A stretch of 32,212 bases of DNA from Phycisphaeraceae bacterium. Its GTDB lineage: Bacteria > Planctomycetota > Phycisphaerae > Phycisphaerales > SM1A02. The stretch covers positions 1 to 32,212 of the forward strand of contig PWVT01000298.1 of NCBI GenBank assembly GCA_003562195.1. Direction: 5' to 3'. Below are positions 1,308 to 30,184 of this stretch, piece after piece. Both the position numbers and the translations under genes were made by a program. Below the pieces are notes generated by a model that ran no database searches, was not told the DNA's origin, and saw only the letters and a program-made list of their open reading frames with translations. How positions within the stretch are numbered: position 1 is the first letter of the stretch; every line of letters begins with the position of its first letter.

Positions 1308-3737
1308 CTAAAACGGAAGTTCCGCGCTGAAACTCAGCACCTGGGTCTCGTCGCCACGTTCCTTGAGAATCGGGAAGCCAAGGTCGAAGGCGATGGGCAC
1401 CGGCCCGAATTGCGGAATGTAAAGCCGAACGCCCGTCCCGATCGAAACACGATAGTCATCGAAGCCCACGCTGTCCGTCACCGTACCGGTATCAATAAAC
1501 ACGACACCGGTCACCTGCTCACCGAACAGCGGAAACTCGTACTGCGCACCGGCAAAGAACATCCATTCCCCACCGATCGGATCGTTGCTTGGTTCGCCCG
1601 TATCGTTGCGAATGCCTTTCGGGCTGACTTCGCGGAAGCGAAATCCGCGGAATGTTCGACCACCACGGTAGTAGCGTTCATACGTTGGAGCACGGCCCCC
1701 GAAGATATACCCCGCCTCCGTGTTCAGCCGCAAGGTTGAGCGTCTGCCGAGGAAGTCCTCCGTTACTGTCAGGAACACGGTGTACTCGGCTCCGATATTG
1801 TTGAAGCCGTAATCGCCGCCGAACGCACCAATGCGATCGTACGACATCTGGAAACGACTGCCGCGACCGGGGCGGGTGATTGTGGTGACTGTCGAACGAG
1901 TGAAGGTCATCCCCAACGCCGTGAGCAGGTCGGGACCGGCATCACGAAACAGCTCCGATGGCGCAAAGGGTGCGATGCTGGTCAACTCGACATGCTCGAC
2001 ACGCGAACGCACGCCGACACTCCAGACATCACCAAGCCGACGGCTGAGACCGGCATTCGCAGTCAGCCGTTCCTCGTCGTATCGACGGAAGAACCGCTGT
2101 TGGTACGAGCCGCCGAGATTGAGTGAATACTCCGAATCAAGCAGATGCGGCTCGGTAAAATTGATGGCGTATTGGAAAATCTCATTGCCAGGGCGAAACG
2201 CCATGGAGAATCGTTGGCCAGCTCCACGAAAGGCACGGCCTCGAAGAAGATCACCGATGGATGCAGGGGTGTCGGCGATATCGAAGTTGTCCTGTCGCAG
2301 TGAGATTTCACCGAAAAGCCCAGAGTCCGAACCCACGGCCACGCCGAAATTGACTGAGCCAGTATTCCGCTCGCGCACTTCAACCAGGATATCGCGGACT
2401 TCTGAGTCATCATCTTCAATGTCCGACTCTCGCGGTGGCTGTGCTGTGATTCGAACATCGCCGAACAGTCTCGTATCTGCGATGCGCCGTCGTGTGCGCT
2501 CAAGCTCTGTCGCGTCCAGTGGGCGACCGGGTTGCAGACGCACATGCCTCCGAATCACGCGATCACGCGTCAGGAAATTGCCTTGGACATCGACCAGTCC
2601 CACGCGAGTCGGGCGACCTTCGTCAATTTCCATCAGCAAGTCGACTTGTGCTTCTCCAGGGACGTGTAACTCAATGATTTCAACACGTTGCCGTCGCTGC
2701 ACCGGGTAATAGCCAAGCCGCCCGTAGGCCTCCTCTACGGCCTCAACAGAGCGGCGGAGTCGGTCACGCGAATAGACATCGCCGGGCCGAATATCGAGCA
2801 ACGCGGCAATCTGTTCTGCTGCGAACACGCGCAACGGTTCACCATCAACCAGTCTGGCCGTGCGAACGCTTCGCAAGGTGTACAGCGGTCCCTCATCAAT
2901 GAGAAACGTCACCGCAGCTTCGCCATGGTCTGGTGAAAGCTGAACGTGCCGATCCACACGCACCTCAAGATACCCGCGATCGCGGTAGTAGGAGGAAATG
3001 GCCGATACGTCTTCGATCAGACGATCTTCGTCAAGCTCACCACGCCGCAACGCCAGAATCGCTGTTCTGGTGGAGATTTCCCGATGCAGCAGGCGATCTT
3101 CAAATGCTTCATTGCCTTGAAACTCGATGGAGCGAATCCGGACGCGTGGGCCTTCGATGATTCGGAAGATCAGTATGCCGGATTGCTCAAGTTCAGAATC
3201 GTCAACGAGTACCGTGGCAAGATAGTGGCCACGTTCTCGATATGCCGTCTGAATCGAGCGCACTGCGTGTTGCACAAGGTAGTCATCGCGCGGGCTGCCG
3301 CGCATCAATCGTACGACTGCGAGCAGATCCTGATCGGAGATCAAGGTGTTGCCGACAACCTGGATTTCGGCGATCAGGGGCTGTTCGACCACCTGGAAGA
3401 TGACGCGGACCGTGCCATCGTCAAGCACTTCCGCCTCTGCTGTAATAGTGGCAAAGCGACCGAGCTGATCCAACCGGGCGACATCATCGCGAATCGTTTG
3501 CTCACTATATGCTTGTCCGACAGCAGTTCGTATATTGTTCAGCACCAATTGTTGGGGCACCTGCTGCAGCCCGTGGACAGTGACGTCGGAGATTGGCCGA
3601 TCGACAAGATCCGCGTCGGGTGCCGGTTGTGAGTATGCATTGGTCACACACACAAGCACCGCAAAGATGACGAGGAGGTGTACAACGCCGGGCAAGCGAT
3701 GAACTGCGCAAATAGTGGCAGGTGTGTGCAGCGCCAT
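1308..3737 (-). CDS. bamA: Outer membrane protein assembly factor BamA (POTRA repeats plus Omp85 barrel)
   Basis: 809 aa with signal peptide, repeated POTRA-like segments (e.g. 'EGPRVRIRSIEFQGNEAFEDRLL', 'RVGLVDVQGNFLTRDRVIRRHVRLQPGRPLD') and a C-terminal surface-antigen barrel ('YYRGGRTFRGFRFREVSPKG', 'FIDTGTV', 'GTGVRLYIPQFGPVPIAFDLGFPI'). Confidence 0.93.
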   Translation of the reverse strand: MALHTPATICAVHRLPGVVHLLVIFAVLVCVTNAYSQPAPDADLVDRPISDVTVHGLQQVPQQLVLNNIRTAVGQAYSEQTIRDDVARLDQLGRFATITAEAEVLDDGTVRVIFQVVEQPLIAEIQVVGNTLISDQDLLAVVRLMRGSPRDDYLVQHAVRSIQTAYRERGHYLATVLVDDSELEQSGILIFRIIEGPRVRIRSIEFQGNEAFEDRLLHREISTRTAILALRRGELDEDRLIEDVSAISSYYRDRGYLEVRVDRHVQLSPDHGEAAVTFLIDEGPLYTLRSVRTARLVDGEPLRVFAAEQIAALLDIRPGDVYSRDRLRRSVEAVEEAYGRLGYYPVQRRQRVEIIELHVPGEAQVDLLMEIDEGRPTRVGLVDVQGNFLTRDRVIRRHVRLQPGRPLDATELERTRRRIADTRLFGDVRITAQPPRESDIEDDDSEVRDILVEVRERNTGSVNFGVAVGSDSGLFGEISLRQDNFDIADTPASIGDLLRGRAFRGAGQRFSMAFRPGNEIFQYAINFTEPHLLDSEYSLNLGGSYQQRFFRRYDEERLTANAGLSRRLGDVWSVGVRSRVEHVELTSIAPFAPSELFRDAGPDLLTALGMTFTRSTVTTITRPGRGSRFQMSYDRIGAFGGDYGFNNIGAEYTVFLTVTEDFLGRRSTLRLNTEAGYIFGGRAPTYERYYRGGRTFRGFRFREVSPKGIRNDTGEPSNDPIGGEWMFFAGAQYEFPLFGEQVTGVVFIDTGTVTDSVGFDDYRVSIGTGVRLYIPQFGPVPIAFDLGFPILKERGDETQVLSFSAELPF

Positions 3738-3786
3738 GAGAATCCGGGAGCATACCGGCGGGATGCAGAGTCAACAAGGCGAATGC

Positions 3787-3794
3787 GTTTCGTG
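3787..3794. repeat. Left copy of an 8-bp target-site duplication (GTTTCGTG) flanking palindromic element copy 1
   Basis: GTTTCGTG at 3787-3794 is repeated exactly at 3893-3900, abutting both ends of the inverted-repeat element. Confidence 0.8.
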
Positions 3795-3892
3795 GGTACT
3801 GGTACAGTTTGAAAGTGGAACAGGCCTCTGGCCTGTAGATACGTTCCTCAGGCGGGACGCCTGTGCCACCGGATTCAAACTGTACCAGTACG
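3795..3892 (+). mobile_element. MITE-like non-autonomous palindromic element, copy 1 (98 bp)
   Basis: Ends GGTACTGGTACAGTTTGAA...TTCAAACTGTACCAGTACG (18/19 bp inverted repeat). Internal hairpins ACAGGCC-TCT-GGCCTGT (3820-3836) and CAGGCG-GGA-CGCCTG (3849-3863). Flanked by 8-bp direct repeats. Homologous to the element at 30078-30176. Confidence 0.82.
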
Positions 3893-3900
3893 GTTTCGTG
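3893..3900. repeat. Right copy of 8-bp target-site duplication (GTTTCGTG), element copy 1
   Basis: Exact match to 3787-3794. Confidence 0.8.
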
Positions 3901-3945
3901 CAACCGCATGGACTTTTGCGCCGTGACACGGTTCAATGGCTGCAA

Positions 3946-5019
3946 ATGAATGTCATGTCTCTCAATGAGCTTGCTGAACGGATCGGCGCTCGCGTGCTTG
4001 GTGACGGCTCGCGGAACGTTTCTCGCTGCGCTTCGATCGAGAAAGCGGGGTCTGATGAAGTCGCATTTGTTGCCAATGCCAAGTATGCCCGTTTTCTCAA
4101 CAGCACGAAAGCCGCAGCAGTGTTGGTGGATGCGGCTGTCGCTCAAGACCCACGAACGCCGAAGTCACTGACCAAACTGGTTGCGGATGACCCGTACTTT
4201 GCCTTTCGCAATGCATTGATCGAACTCAACGGCCAGCGCACGCATCCAACACCGCTGGATGCCGATGCACAGTTTGCCGATGGCAAAATCAGCCCGCGGG
4301 CGGCGATTCATCCCGAGGCCGTTGTCGGCCGTGATACCATCATTCATCCCTTTGCCACGGTCGAACGAGGCGCACGGATTGGCAACGGGTGCGTGTTGTA
4401 TCCGGGTGCGTATGTGGGGGAAGAGGCCGTGGTCGGTGATGAGTGTCTGCTGTTTCCCAACGTGACGATCTACGACCGCTGCGTGCTCGGGAACCGCGTG
4501 ACGCTCCATTCCAGCACCGTCGTGGGGCAGGATGGATTCGGCTATGCCACGCACAAGGGCGCGCATCACAAAATTCCGCAAACAGGCATCGTGGTCATTG
4601 AAGACGATGTTGAACTCGGTGCTGGTTGCGCGATCGAACGCTCTGCGATGGGGCAGACGAGAATCGGGGCGGGAACCAAGTTTGCCGACCTGATCTCTAT
4701 TGGACATGGTTGTGACATCGGCAAGCATTGCCTTTTTGTTTCCTTTGTCGGCGTGTCCGGGTCCGTGGAAGTCGGCAACTATGTCGTGCTCGGCGGGCAA
4801 GTCGGTGTGACCGGCCACCTCAAGATCGGCGACGGAGTGCAGGCGATGGCAAGAAGTGCCATCGTGCGTGATGTCCCGGCAGGGGCCAAGGTCGGCGGAG
4901 CACCGGCCGTCCCGGCGGAGATCGCCCGGCGAAATGTCATGGCGTCAGTCGATCTGCACAAACTGGTCAAACGGGTGCGCGACTTGGAACGCCAACTCGA
5001 GATTTCGAAAACTCAATAG
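3946..5019 (+). CDS. lpxD: UDP-3-O-acylglucosamine N-acyltransferase LpxD
   Basis: MNVMSLNELAERIGARVLGDGS... is the canonical LpxD N-terminus, followed by hexapeptide (LbH) repeats ('RIGNGCVLYPGAYVGEEAVVGDECLLFPNVTIYDRCVLGNRVTLHSSTVVGQDGFGYA'). The track ORF begins at 3715 but its first 77 codons read through the palindromic element; start at 3946 or 3955 preferred. Confidence 0.93.
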   Translation: MNVMSLNELAERIGARVLGDGSRNVSRCASIEKAGSDEVAFVANAKYARFLNSTKAAAVLVDAAVAQDPRTPKSLTKLVADDPYFAFRNALIELNGQRTHPTPLDADAQFADGKISPRAAIHPEAVVGRDTIIHPFATVERGARIGNGCVLYPGAYVGEEAVVGDECLLFPNVTIYDRCVLGNRVTLHSSTVVGQDGFGYATHKGAHHKIPQTGIVVIEDDVELGAGCAIERSAMGQTRIGAGTKFADLISIGHGCDIGKHCLFVSFVGVSGSVEVGNYVVLGGQVGVTGHLKIGDGVQAMARSAIVRDVPAGAKVGGAPAVPAEIARRNVMASVDLHKLVKRVRDLERQLEISKTQ

Positions 5020-11988: not shown

Positions 11989-13005
11989 TCAAGGCCGCTG
12001 GCGATCACGATTACCGCCGCTGCTGCCTGCCTGTTCACCAATGTCGCGACCGCGGCGGACATCCTCGACGCGGATGTTGGACAAACCGCCGGAAAATCGC
12101 ACATATCGTCGTTCTGCTTGTGCTTGGGAGCGATTTGCGGGTCTGACAGCAAATGGGTAGCCGCCAATTTGTCGGTGAATGAAGTCCGGGGCACGGATGA
12201 TCAGTTGGCCGTGATAGTACCGAATGGTTGCCCAGTCACCGCCAAGGATTTCCCAGCCATCAGGTTCGATGGTCTCGGTGATCAGGTCAATGATTTGCTG
12301 GACGCGTTCTTCCTCAGTGAGGCGTTCTCTTTCCTGGCCGGGTTCACCGAAGAGGCCTCCACCACCCTGGCCGCCTCCACCGCCGCCCCCGCCACCACCG
12401 CCGCCTCGCCCACCGCCGCCCCCACCGCCACCGCCGCCTCCACCACCGCCTTGATCGAGGGCTTGGTTGAGGTCGAATTGCGGGGCATTGTCAAACAGCG
12501 GCACTTCAAAAAGCAAGTCGCGAATCGGGTAATAGCGAATCTCTTTTGCAGCCGGTGCAGCAAGGCGATCTTTCGTGCCAACTTCGAGGAAGCCATCACG
12601 AAGCTGCCATGTGGTTTCATCAAAGTCCGAGGCCTGTTCGAGTACGCGCTCCAGAATGCTCAAAGCAGGCATTTCTCGGCTGTCAAGGGTGATCGGAGCA
12701 TCGGGATCCAGCCCATGTCCAGCGCGATCAGTGCTATACCGTGCGATGATGTTGATTCCAAGCACTGTTTGCAGGTAGTCAATAGCGTCGCGTGCGGGTG
12801 TCTCCTGAAACGGTGCAGAGATATCCGTATACAGAAGCACGCTGAGAATGTGGGCCTTATCGGTATCAGCAGCGCGGGTTCGTTCCTGCTGCTGGCGGAC
12901 GTGCTCCAAGCGTTGGCCCAGCCCTTGCGCATAGGTGTCACTGCCTACGATACCAAGCAATAATGTGCCGGAAACTGCAAGTGCGAACGGTCGAATTGAC
13001 TTCAT
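11989..13005 (-). CDS. Exported protein homologous to the N-terminal (STN/N0-like) region of secretins, with polyglycine linker; no secretin barrel domain
   Basis: 338 aa with signal peptide, 'ARDAIDYLQTVLGINIIARYS...ITLDSREMPALSILERVLEQ...IRDLLFEVPLFDNAPQFDLNQALDQ' then G14-R-G12-Q-G4, then 'LFGEPGQERERLTEEERVQQIIDLITETIEPDGWEILGGDW...HRQIGGYPF'. Aligns with the secretin at 21894-24743. RBS-like AAAGGAGAGG upstream on the minus strand. Confidence 0.78.
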   Translation of the reverse strand: MKSIRPFALAVSGTLLLGIVGSDTYAQGLGQRLEHVRQQQERTRAADTDKAHILSVLLYTDISAPFQETPARDAIDYLQTVLGINIIARYSTDRAGHGLDPDAPITLDSREMPALSILERVLEQASDFDETTWQLRDGFLEVGTKDRLAAPAAKEIRYYPIRDLLFEVPLFDNAPQFDLNQALDQGGGGGGGGGGGGGGRGGGGGGGGGGGGQGGGGLFGEPGQERERLTEEERVQQIIDLITETIEPDGWEILGGDWATIRYYHGQLIIRAPDFIHRQIGGYPFAVRPANRSQAQAERRYVRFSGGLSNIRVEDVRRGRDIGEQAGSSGGNRDRQRP

Positions 13006-21893: not shown

Positions 21894-24743
21894 ATGAAGA
21901 TGTTTGCAGAACGACGTCTCTGGTCGCTTGCCACCGCAGGCCTGGTGGGAATTGCGATCGGCACTCTGCCGTGTACAGCCCTCGGAGTGTCCCACAGTGA
22001 GGCGGCCAAGGATGAGCAGCGAGATGACGAAGTCAATCGCGCCAAGGGCGAAGCGGCGTTGGAAGATGGCAAGCGACATGCTGCTGCAGGTCGCTGGCGA
22101 CAGGCGGCCGATGCATTCACGACCGCACTCACGCATATGCCTGACAACGAACAAGCCAGGGAAGGGCTTGACCGTGCGATGACAATGGTCGATCAGGGAA
22201 CCTCGCTGCCGGAGATCGAAGCTGAACGCGAGCGCCAGCGCCAGCGAGCAATTGTTGAATTTGAAGACGCGTACGAACGATCGCGTGCCGCCCTACGCCG
22301 CGAAGATTTTTCAAGCGCTCAACAGAACATTCTGACTGCAAAGATCCGTCTCGATCGTGCCCGAACGTTCCTGCGTGAAGCCGAGCATGCCCGGATGACT
22401 GGGCAAGCTGATCAGTTGCTGAGCGAAATTGAGCAGGCGCGTGCAGCGCACCGGCTGCTGCAAGATGAACAACAGCGCCGTGAAGCTGAGCGGCAGCAGC
22501 GGGATGAGCAAGAACGCGCCCGCCAGCAGCGGCAGGCGGTTATCAATGAGAATCTCGTGCGTGTGCGTCAACTGCAAATGGAACTCAAGTACGCTGAGGC
22601 CCTGCAGGTCATTGACGAAATTCTGTTCATTGATGAACTGAATCCTGCAGCTTTGGCACTGCGAGACATAATCCAGACCAGCGAACTGTATCGCGAATAT
22701 GCCGAAGTCCAGAGACAGCGCAATCGCTCCTACGGCAATATCGCGCTTGAAAATCAGCGGGCACTGGTCGCACCGGATCGCAATATTGATGGTCCCGGCT
22801 TGCGTTCCGCAGATGGCCTGATGCAGTATCCAGAGGATTGGCCTCAACTGAGCATGCGCCGCTCGTATGACGGCGGTTTTCGCGATACGCCAGCCGACCG
22901 TGCTGTCGCCCAGCGACTTCGTGACACCACGATCCCGGTCGATTTTTCCAATAACACATTGGAACAGGTCATCAATTTCGTAGCTCAAGTTACAGGATTG
23001 AACATCTACGTCGACTGGCGAGCTCTCAATCTCGTAGGCATCGATCGTGATGACGAAGTGACGCTGCAACTGACGGAACTTCCCGTCGAAACTGCGCTGC
23101 AGCGTGTGCTTGAGCAGATCGGTGACGATTTTGAGCGACCGCAGTATGCCATTCAGGATGGCATGCTCACTATCTCCAGCGACGAAGCACTGCGACGTCG
23201 TACCGTGACATTGGTCTACGACATCCAAGACCTGCTGTTTGAAGTGCCCATCTTCGACAACGCTCCGCAATTTGACCTTAACCAGGCCCTTGATCAGGGC
23301 GGCGGCGGCGGAGGTGGCGGCGGCGGCGGCGGTGGTGGCCGCGGCGGCGGTGGTGGCGGCGGCGGTGGTGGTGGTGGCCTCTTTGGCGAGCCTGGCCAGG
23401 AGCGCGAACGCCGTACCCGTGAAGAGCTGATCGATCAGATCGTTGCCATCATTCAAGAGAGTGTCGATCCTGACGGTTGGCGTGAACTCGGTGGCGATAC
23501 CGGCTCCCTGCAGGAACTGAACGGTAACCTCATCATCAACAACACACCGGGCAACCACCGCGAAATCGATGGATTGCTCTCAATGCTGCGAGAAATTCGT
23601 GACTTGCAGATCAATGTCGAAACGCGCGTGCTCGAAGTCTCCACGAACTGGTTTGAGCAAATCGGCGTTGACCTTGATTTGTACTTCAACACGAATAACG
23701 ACATGTGGCGACGCGCTCGTCAAGCCGATCCCAACTTCCAGTTGGCGGATTTTTTCGGGCCGCAGGGCCAGCTTCGTAATCCTGTCGTGTTCGGCAGCGT
23801 TAATCAGCTTGAAGCGGCGAATGATCCGCTGAATCCGATCAACGCCATCGCCAGTGGCTCGTCCATCGGTATTCCAGATGACACCGGCCAAAACATTGCC
23901 TACATCACTGGTCCGGTCGGTGCTCCGGTGCGAAACCGTCGTGGCTTCGCGCCCATTGGCATGACGCAGAACTCGTTGAACATGGCGAACGAACTCGCTG
24001 GCCTCTCCGGCTTTGCAGCAACCGCAATGGCTGTCGGCCCGGCTGCATCAGTTGGTCTGCAATTCCTTGATGACATCCAAGTGGACTTGCTCATTGAAGC
24101 GACTCAGGCAGACCGTCGTTCCGTCGTACTGAGTGCCCCAAGGTTGACGTTCTTCAACGGCGGTGATGCATGGATTGCTGTGGCTACTGGTACGACTTTC
24201 GTGTCGTCTCTTGAAGCAGTCGTGGCAGAAGGCGGTGTGGCTTTCCGTCCCATCATCGATCGTGTGTTTGACGGTTTCGTAATGCACATTCACGGTGTGA
24301 TTTCGGCTGACCGTCGATATGTCACCCTTGCCGTGCGATTTGACTCGGCAGAGCTGGTCGAAATGGTTCCCGCAACGGCTCGTGCACAGGCCCGAGGTGG
24401 CGGCGACTTTGGCGGCGGTGTGGCTGATGCGTTTGAAGGCGATTTCGAGTTGCCTGTGCTCTCCGGCCAAAATATCCGAACGGCCGTTTCCGTTCCTGAT
24501 AAGGGCACGCTGTTGCTCGGTGGCGCGCGAACTATCAGCGAGATTGAGGTCGAAACCGGCGTGCCGGTCCTCTCAAAGATTCCCTTTATCAATCGGTTCT
24601 TCACGAACCGGATTACCTCGAAGGATGAGTCTTCATTGCTGATTCTCATTCGTCCGGAAATCATTATCCAGCAGGAGAATGAGGACATGCTCTTCCCCGG
24701 CCTCTCCGACACGCTCGGAACCGGTAGTTCAATGATGCGATAA
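21894..24743 (+). CDS. Secretin (GspD/PilQ-like) with N-terminal TPR/coiled-coil region and internal polyglycine tract
   Basis: TPR-like 'GRWRQAADAFTTALTHMPDNEQAREGLDRAM', N0/STN-like 'IPVDFSNNTLEQVINFVAQVTGLNIYVDWRAL', polyGly G14-R-G12, secretin core 'VDLLIEATQADRRSVVLSAPRLTFFNGGDAWIAV...VSVPDKGTLLLGGARTISEIEVETGVPVLSKIPFINRFFTNRITSKDESSLLILIRPEII'. Start at 21894 (MKMFAERRLW) preferred over 21849. Confidence 0.9.
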   Translation: MKMFAERRLWSLATAGLVGIAIGTLPCTALGVSHSEAAKDEQRDDEVNRAKGEAALEDGKRHAAAGRWRQAADAFTTALTHMPDNEQAREGLDRAMTMVDQGTSLPEIEAERERQRQRAIVEFEDAYERSRAALRREDFSSAQQNILTAKIRLDRARTFLREAEHARMTGQADQLLSEIEQARAAHRLLQDEQQRREAERQQRDEQERARQQRQAVINENLVRVRQLQMELKYAEALQVIDEILFIDELNPAALALRDIIQTSELYREYAEVQRQRNRSYGNIALENQRALVAPDRNIDGPGLRSADGLMQYPEDWPQLSMRRSYDGGFRDTPADRAVAQRLRDTTIPVDFSNNTLEQVINFVAQVTGLNIYVDWRALNLVGIDRDDEVTLQLTELPVETALQRVLEQIGDDFERPQYAIQDGMLTISSDEALRRRTVTLVYDIQDLLFEVPIFDNAPQFDLNQALDQGGGGGGGGGGGGGGRGGGGGGGGGGGGLFGEPGQERERRTREELIDQIVAIIQESVDPDGWRELGGDTGSLQELNGNLIINNTPGNHREIDGLLSMLREIRDLQINVETRVLEVSTNWFEQIGVDLDLYFNTNNDMWRRARQADPNFQLADFFGPQGQLRNPVVFGSVNQLEAANDPLNPINAIASGSSIGIPDDTGQNIAYITGPVGAPVRNRRGFAPIGMTQNSLNMANELAGLSGFAATAMAVGPAASVGLQFLDDIQVDLLIEATQADRRSVVLSAPRLTFFNGGDAWIAVATGTTFVSSLEAVVAEGGVAFRPIIDRVFDGFVMHIHGVISADRRYVTLAVRFDSAELVEMVPATARAQARGGGDFGGGVADAFEGDFELPVLSGQNIRTAVSVPDKGTLLLGGARTISEIEVETGVPVLSKIPFINRFFTNRITSKDESSLLILIRPEIIIQQENEDMLFPGLSDTLGTGSSMMR

Positions 24744-30069: not shown

Positions 30070-30077
30070 GAACACTG
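30070..30077. repeat. Left copy of 8-bp target-site duplication (GAACACTG) flanking palindromic element copy 2
   Basis: GAACACTG at 30070-30077 is repeated exactly at 30177-30184, abutting both element ends. Confidence 0.8.
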
Positions 30078-30176
30078 GGTAGTGGATCAGTTTGAAAGTG
30101 GAACAGGCCTCTGGCCTGTTCAGACCATGTACAGGCGGGACGCCTGTGCCACCTCTATTCAAACTGACCCACTACC
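30078..30176 (+). mobile_element. MITE-like non-autonomous palindromic element, copy 2 (99 bp)
   Basis: Ends GGTAGTGGATCAGTTTGAA...TTCAAACTGACCCACTACC (18/19 bp inverted repeat). Core AGTGGAACAGGCCTCTGGCCTGT and CAGGCGGGACGCCTGTGCCACC identical to copy 1, separated by a different 12-nt spacer. Flanked by 8-bp direct repeats. Confidence 0.82.
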
Positions 30177-30184
30177 GAACACTG
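30177..30184. repeat. Right copy of 8-bp target-site duplication (GAACACTG), element copy 2
   Basis: Exact match to 30070-30077. Confidence 0.8.

Follow-up and report, generated by a model that had tools for sequence, protein, structure and literature searches.

One of the questions that this locus raises is what kind of repeat has entered the short region between the divergent genes bamA and lpxD, which enzyme could have brought it there and what it may do between the two genes. We analyzed the window, a stretch of 32,212 nucleotides on one contig of a Phycisphaerales-like Planctomycetota MAG (2.75 Mb, 306 contigs, 79% complete). An earlier, sequence-only reading had taken the insert for a MITE mobilised by a DDE-type transposase rather than for a REP element. 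The features at the locus, together with a second copy further along the window, are:

1308–3737, reverse strand: bamA (TIGR03303, 412.8 bits)
3787–3794, no strand: left target-site duplication (TSD) copy GTTTCGTG, 8 bp, exact match to the right copy
3795–3892, forward strand: non-autonomous element of subfamily A, 98 bp, best read as an IS1-type MITE; one of about 36 host copies, 20 of them in subfamily A (88–100% pairwise identity)
3795–3813, forward strand: left terminal inverted repeat (TIR) GGTACTGGTACAGTTTGAA, 19 bp, from sequence and repeat analysis; related ends occur on full-length IS1-type elements
3815–3836, forward strand: REP hairpin 1, GTGGAACAGGCCTCTGGCCTGT, a GTGG tag followed by AACAGGCCTCTGGCCTGT; REP family found alone in relatives
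3849–3869, reverse strand: REP hairpin 2, CAGGCGGGACGCCTGTGCCAC, inverted, reading GTGGCACAGGCGTCCCGCCTG on the minus strand; REP family found alone in relatives
3874–3892, reverse strand: right TIR TTCAAACTGTACCAGTACG, 19 bp; its outermost base differs from the complement of the left TIR
3893–3900, no strand: right TSD copy GTTTCGTG, 8 bp, exact match to the left copy
3955–5019, forward strand: lpxD (TIGR01853, 319 bits)
30078–30176, forward strand: second copy in the window, subfamily B, 99 bp, with an exact TSD GAACACTG at 30070–30077 and 30177–30184

The 98-bp unit, its 19-bp TIRs with one terminal mismatch, the two hairpins and the exact duplication of GTTTCGTG outside both ends, all described by the earlier reading, were confirmed to the base. 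The TIRs are complementary at 18 of 19 positions, the outermost base being the sole mismatch. Hairpin 1 contains the stem-loop ACAGGCC-TCT-GGCCTGT (3820–3836; 7-bp stem, 3-nt loop) and hairpin 2 the stem-loop CAGGCG-GGA-CGCCTG (3849–3863; 6-bp stem, 3-nt loop), with a 12-nt spacer between the two hairpins and GTGG at the outer foot of each. The element strand has a predicted folding energy of −62.8 kcal/mol, compared with −28.6 ± 3.3 for shuffled sequences (z = −10.3). Like other MITEs the element is short, is bounded by TIRs and has no ORF of its own in its 98 bp. An Rfam search of the window gave no match.

Spread through the host genome

A search of the host assembly with the 98-bp unit found about 35 further copies, for a total of about 36; they fall into two subfamilies, A and B, that are 78% identical to each other. 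The 20 copies of subfamily A have a mean pairwise identity of 94%, and one A/B recombinant is found among the 16 copies of subfamily B. The subfamily-B copy of the window has a thioredoxin-domain (DUF255) gene on one side and an AIRS-domain gene on the other. Elsewhere in the window, two GGC/GGT-rich tracts (12355–12519 and 23229–23379) match each other in inverted orientation and probably code for glycine-rich stretches on opposite strands.

The duplication seen at the bamA–lpxD copy could have been a chance repeat, in which case the flanks of other copies should consistently lack it. By comparing flanks at fixed ends, we found an exact 8-bp repeat in 17 of the 34 assessable host copies and a repeat with one mismatch in 6 more; exact repeats of 5–7 or 9–14 bp were found in none of the 34, and 1000 re-pairings of the flanks gave no exact 8-bp match. 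A TSD of fixed length, as is expected of a MITE, is found across the host copies. The recombinant (L190:340-540, on contig C88 of the host assembly) has one subfamily-B end and one subfamily-A end and is flanked by its own exact TSD, TCATGGCC, which suggests that hybrid A/B elements have transposed. Another copy (L003) sits inside an open frame, which closes after 333 codons with the insert in place, and the deletion of exactly 106 nt (the element and one TSD) restores a frame of 699 codons; no Pfam family was matched by the left part of this frame. A preference of the copies for intergenic DNA was also considered, with 16 intergenic copies and 20 'in ORF', and this count was found to be unusable because the greedy ORF method called the lpxD copy in-ORF as well. 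No copy was found in viral contigs searched for the end-plus-REP pattern.

Full-length relatives and the transposase

The end pattern was searched in 400 genomes of the same order. Full-length elements with the GGTA(C/G)TGG...CAGTTTGAA ends, for which the earlier reading had proposed looking, were found as six end pairs 2.2–4.5 kb apart in six genomes, with 8-bp TSDs that are exact in five cases and contain a single mismatch in one. In these elements (L131–L136) extra open frames are seen beside the transposase. Each of the four elements tested has one frame of ~300 amino acids beside one end, and this frame encodes an IS1-type DDE transposase. The best profile matches of the four are PF03400 (DDE_Tnp_IS1), at 23.9–45 bits against a Pfam cut-off of 24.1 that one of them just misses, and the NCBIfam IS1 profile NF033558. 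Since their NF033558 scores of 55–82 bits all fall under the cut-off of 100, the transposases, as judged from sequence profiles, belong to a divergent IS1-type branch and not to canonical IS1. They are 52–56% identical to the first one and have invariant D, D and E motifs in common. Two MITE-bearing genomes, G090 and G152, also contain IS1-type transposase genes with a related end directly behind the gene.

The IS1 family is characterised by GGNNNTG ends and a TSD of 8–9 bp, and the GGTACTG/GGTAGTG ends and 8-bp TSD of the element fit both. An IS1-family MITE is the best reading of the unit, because its TSDs are consistently 8 bp and an IS1-type DDE transposase is encoded by the four same-ended full-length elements tested. 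The insertion by a DDE-type enzyme that the earlier reading proposed is supported by the same two observations, the first of them over many copies. The full-length elements belong to families of the order other than that of the host, and none has the subfamily-A ends (GTACTGGTACAG). The host assembly, 306 contigs that are 79% complete and lack about a fifth of the genome, yielded neither an IS1-type transposase nor an autonomous partner with the same ends. Such partners do occur elsewhere in the order, and fragmented MAG assemblies often lose repeats. That the transposase acted in trans is therefore our inference.

Several other DDE families (IS1595, ISL3, IS66, and IS256) also make 8-bp duplications, and some of their ends start with GG, so that a MITE of one of these families could look similar. 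We regard such an origin as very unlikely, as the four full-length elements with the same ends match IS1 best and the single IS1595 match, at 19.9 bits, is weak and far under the cut-off of that family. IS1595, the one of these four families whose profile was searched in the host, was rejected as the partner, since its transposase (PF12762) is absent from the host assembly and the same-ended elements are closer to IS1.

The REP pair between the ends

Another question is whether an element of this kind can be opposed to REP sequences, as it was in the earlier reading. The part of that reading which proposed a DDE-mobilised MITE stands, given the 8-bp TSDs and the IS1-type full-length elements, and the part which set it apart from REPs does not, since two GTGG-tagged REP hairpins in inverted orientation, which together have the structure of a REP/REPIN, fill nearly all of the interior. 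The either/or between a DDE MITE and a REP fails; the element is both. GTGG was reported in O. terrae as a variant of the GTAG tag of REPs, and REPs are known in planctomycetes (PMC3733652). REPINs are inverted REP pairs (PMC3116915).

The GTGG-tagged hairpin is matched 56 times in relative G003, 31 times in G009, 10 times in G056 and 6 times in G081, and those inspected are single hairpins or inverted pairs, mostly without IS1-type ends. In the host only 2 of 37 hairpin matches lie outside MITEs, so nearly all are MITE-borne. G003 also contains divergent versions bounded by the ends, one with an exact TSD (L203) and one with a single mismatch (L202). Ends of this type surround another REP family, CGAGCCGCGACYGTNAGGNAGCGG, in G129, G144, G152 and G090, where it stands singly or in pairs. 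This family has 64–185 copies in each of the four genomes, where 13 of 22 end-bearing places have such a REP at most 170 bp away and two more are cut by a contig end; one element of G129, 83 bp long, contains no REP. In G009, G167 and G394 the CGAGCCGCGACYGTNAGGNAGCGG family has 65–108 copies, and no MITE-like end pair was listed there. With up to 185 copies per genome it is spread over several families of the order (G152, G144, G009, and G167). Because an unrelated REP family lies within the same ends in four other genera, REP cargo has been acquired by IS1-type MITEs at least twice. The simplest order of events, we infer, is that a REP was inserted into a pre-existing MITE.

Y1/RAYT-like genes are found in the host and in G003, which is compatible with the REPs having a mobility of their own. 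At the G003 locus one REP lies ~1 kb from the domain of the gene; at the host gene examined (L211) neither IS1-type ends nor REPs were found within the 2.1-kb locus. These genes, together with the tagged inverted pair, could favor a plain REPIN/BIME that was spread by a RAYT (an HUH tyrosine transposase), its outer repeats being an extension of the hairpin as in TIRtrons (Di Nocera, 2013), and RAYT genes with long flanking TIRs have been described (PMC3733652). Yet 8-bp TSDs are the rule among the element copies, the ends are found in other genera around another REP family or around no REP at all, they bound full-length elements with a DDE transposase, and they are missing, as are REPs, from the host RAYT-like locus. 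An 8-bp duplication is not a known outcome of HUH transposition, and we give this origin hardly any credence. Our literature search found no description of IS1-type MITEs that contain REP pairs, which does not prove that there is none, and no paper on ISMhu11 or IS1-type MITEs in planctomycetes.

The bamA–lpxD site and known systems

Among named genomes, those nearest to the host are MAGs of Phycisphaerales and other Planctomycetota. Seven of the eight closest, several of which are near-identical to one another, have bamA divergent from lpxD with 85–121 bp between the starts and no element. In the window the starts are 217 bp apart, and 111 bp would remain without the element and one TSD, in agreement with the proposal that the insertion roughly doubles the gap. 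Of the empty sites expected in relatives, the element-free gap is found; the single GTTTCGTG is not visible at this distance of relationship. An OmpH/Skp-like gene (PF03938; 563–1228) adjoins bamA on the same strand.

As a scan of 3650–4050 for sigma-70 and terminator consensus sequences found nothing, the placement of the promoters rests on the motifs of relatives:

3749–3777, reverse strand: predicted core promoter of bamA, TTGTTG-17-TATGCT; three relatives have a similar motif, prediction only
3909–3937, forward strand: predicted core promoter of lpxD, TGGACT-17-TTCAAT, located downstream of the element; comparison with ten relatives, weak match

On the bamA side the motif of the three relatives is TTGTGG/TTGTGA-17-TATCCT/TATTCT. 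Upstream of lpxD a sigma-70-like motif, TTGACC-17-TA(G/C)NNT, is found in 10 of 10 relatives, 18–22 bp before the start in nine of them; the motif of the window lies 17 bp before the start, and an equally good score is reached in 12.5% of shuffles. The loci in which the conserved lpxD motif stands back to back with bamA are L224–L230, L238, L240, and L245. The element separates the two predicted −35 boxes and leaves both predicted core promoters intact, and it displaces whatever sequence stood upstream of the two. The insert may insulate bamA and lpxD or alter their regulation. That the REP pair is retained mainly as such an insulator or regulator, with its mobility incidental, could be argued from its position between the predicted −35 boxes and its very stable predicted fold, yet this is scarcely believable when ~35 other host copies adjoin other genes or fall within open frames, the relatives have no element at this site and purifying selection would anyway leave insertions that spare both core promoters.

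The explanation that fits our data best, and which we hold with considerable confidence, is an IS1-type MITE with a REPIN-like interior that has spread to about 36 copies, one of them between the bamA and lpxD promoters. Its ends would derive from the long-element branch of IS1-type DDE transposons with a single transposase ORF, and an independent, REPIN-like inverted pair of GTGG-tagged hairpins would have ended up between two such ends. An IS1-type transposase, from elsewhere in the genome or from an ancestor, may have recognised the GGTA(C/G)TGG..CAGTTTGAA ends, and a staggered cut at insertion would have duplicated 8 bp. The composite would then have multiplied into about 36 copies and two subfamilies, and the copy that entered between bamA and lpxD would have moved the predicted −35 boxes from ~25 to ~131 bp apart.

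As a MITE the element is ordinary, and the recurring composite of REPs in an IS1-type MITE may be the new part. REPs or REPINs and MITEs are treated as separate classes that are spread by unrelated enzymes. One speculative option, to which we give a minor chance, is a recurrent two-engine repeat, in which REP hairpins, as substrates of RAYT/HUH enzymes, are repeatedly placed within IS1-type MITE ends in several genera, so that a double-strand DDE enzyme, and perhaps a single-strand HUH enzyme as well, can spread one and the same repeat. A stable hairpin interior may favor the capture or persistence of such MITEs. IS1-type ends around two unrelated REP families in different genera offer a route by which REPs can spread without a RAYT of their own, and the presence or absence of TSDs is a way to distinguish the two modes of spreading genome by genome. 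The well-defined insertion between divergent promoters of outer-membrane biogenesis genes makes insulation by a MITE testable at this site.

With the IS1 family, of which an ISAba3-like element has the TIR GGTGGTGTTTCAAAAAGTATGCTG and an 8-bp TSD (PMC6382973), the element has in common the GGNNNTG ends, the 8-bp TSD and an IS1-type DDE transposase in its presumed parents. It differs in that these parents are 2.2–4.5 kb long, have a single ~300-amino-acid transposase ORF with other open frames and score below the NCBIfam IS1 cut-off, while the MITE itself has no ORF. Other bacterial MITEs (MITEAba12, PMC6382973; NEMIS, RUP, and Nezha) are likewise non-coding, about 100 bp long and present in many copies with TIRs and a TSD of fixed length, but the interior here is an inverted REP pair that exists independently, without a recognisable remnant of a parent IS. 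As in REPINs and GTAG-tagged REPs (PMC3116915, PMC3733652), two inverted hairpins with a GTGG tag are separated by a short spacer and RAYT-like genes are present in the genome; the difference is that almost every copy in the host has IS1-type ends and TSDs around it. Judged by these sequence features, the host REP pairs read as having been moved by a class of enzyme other than that of REPINs.
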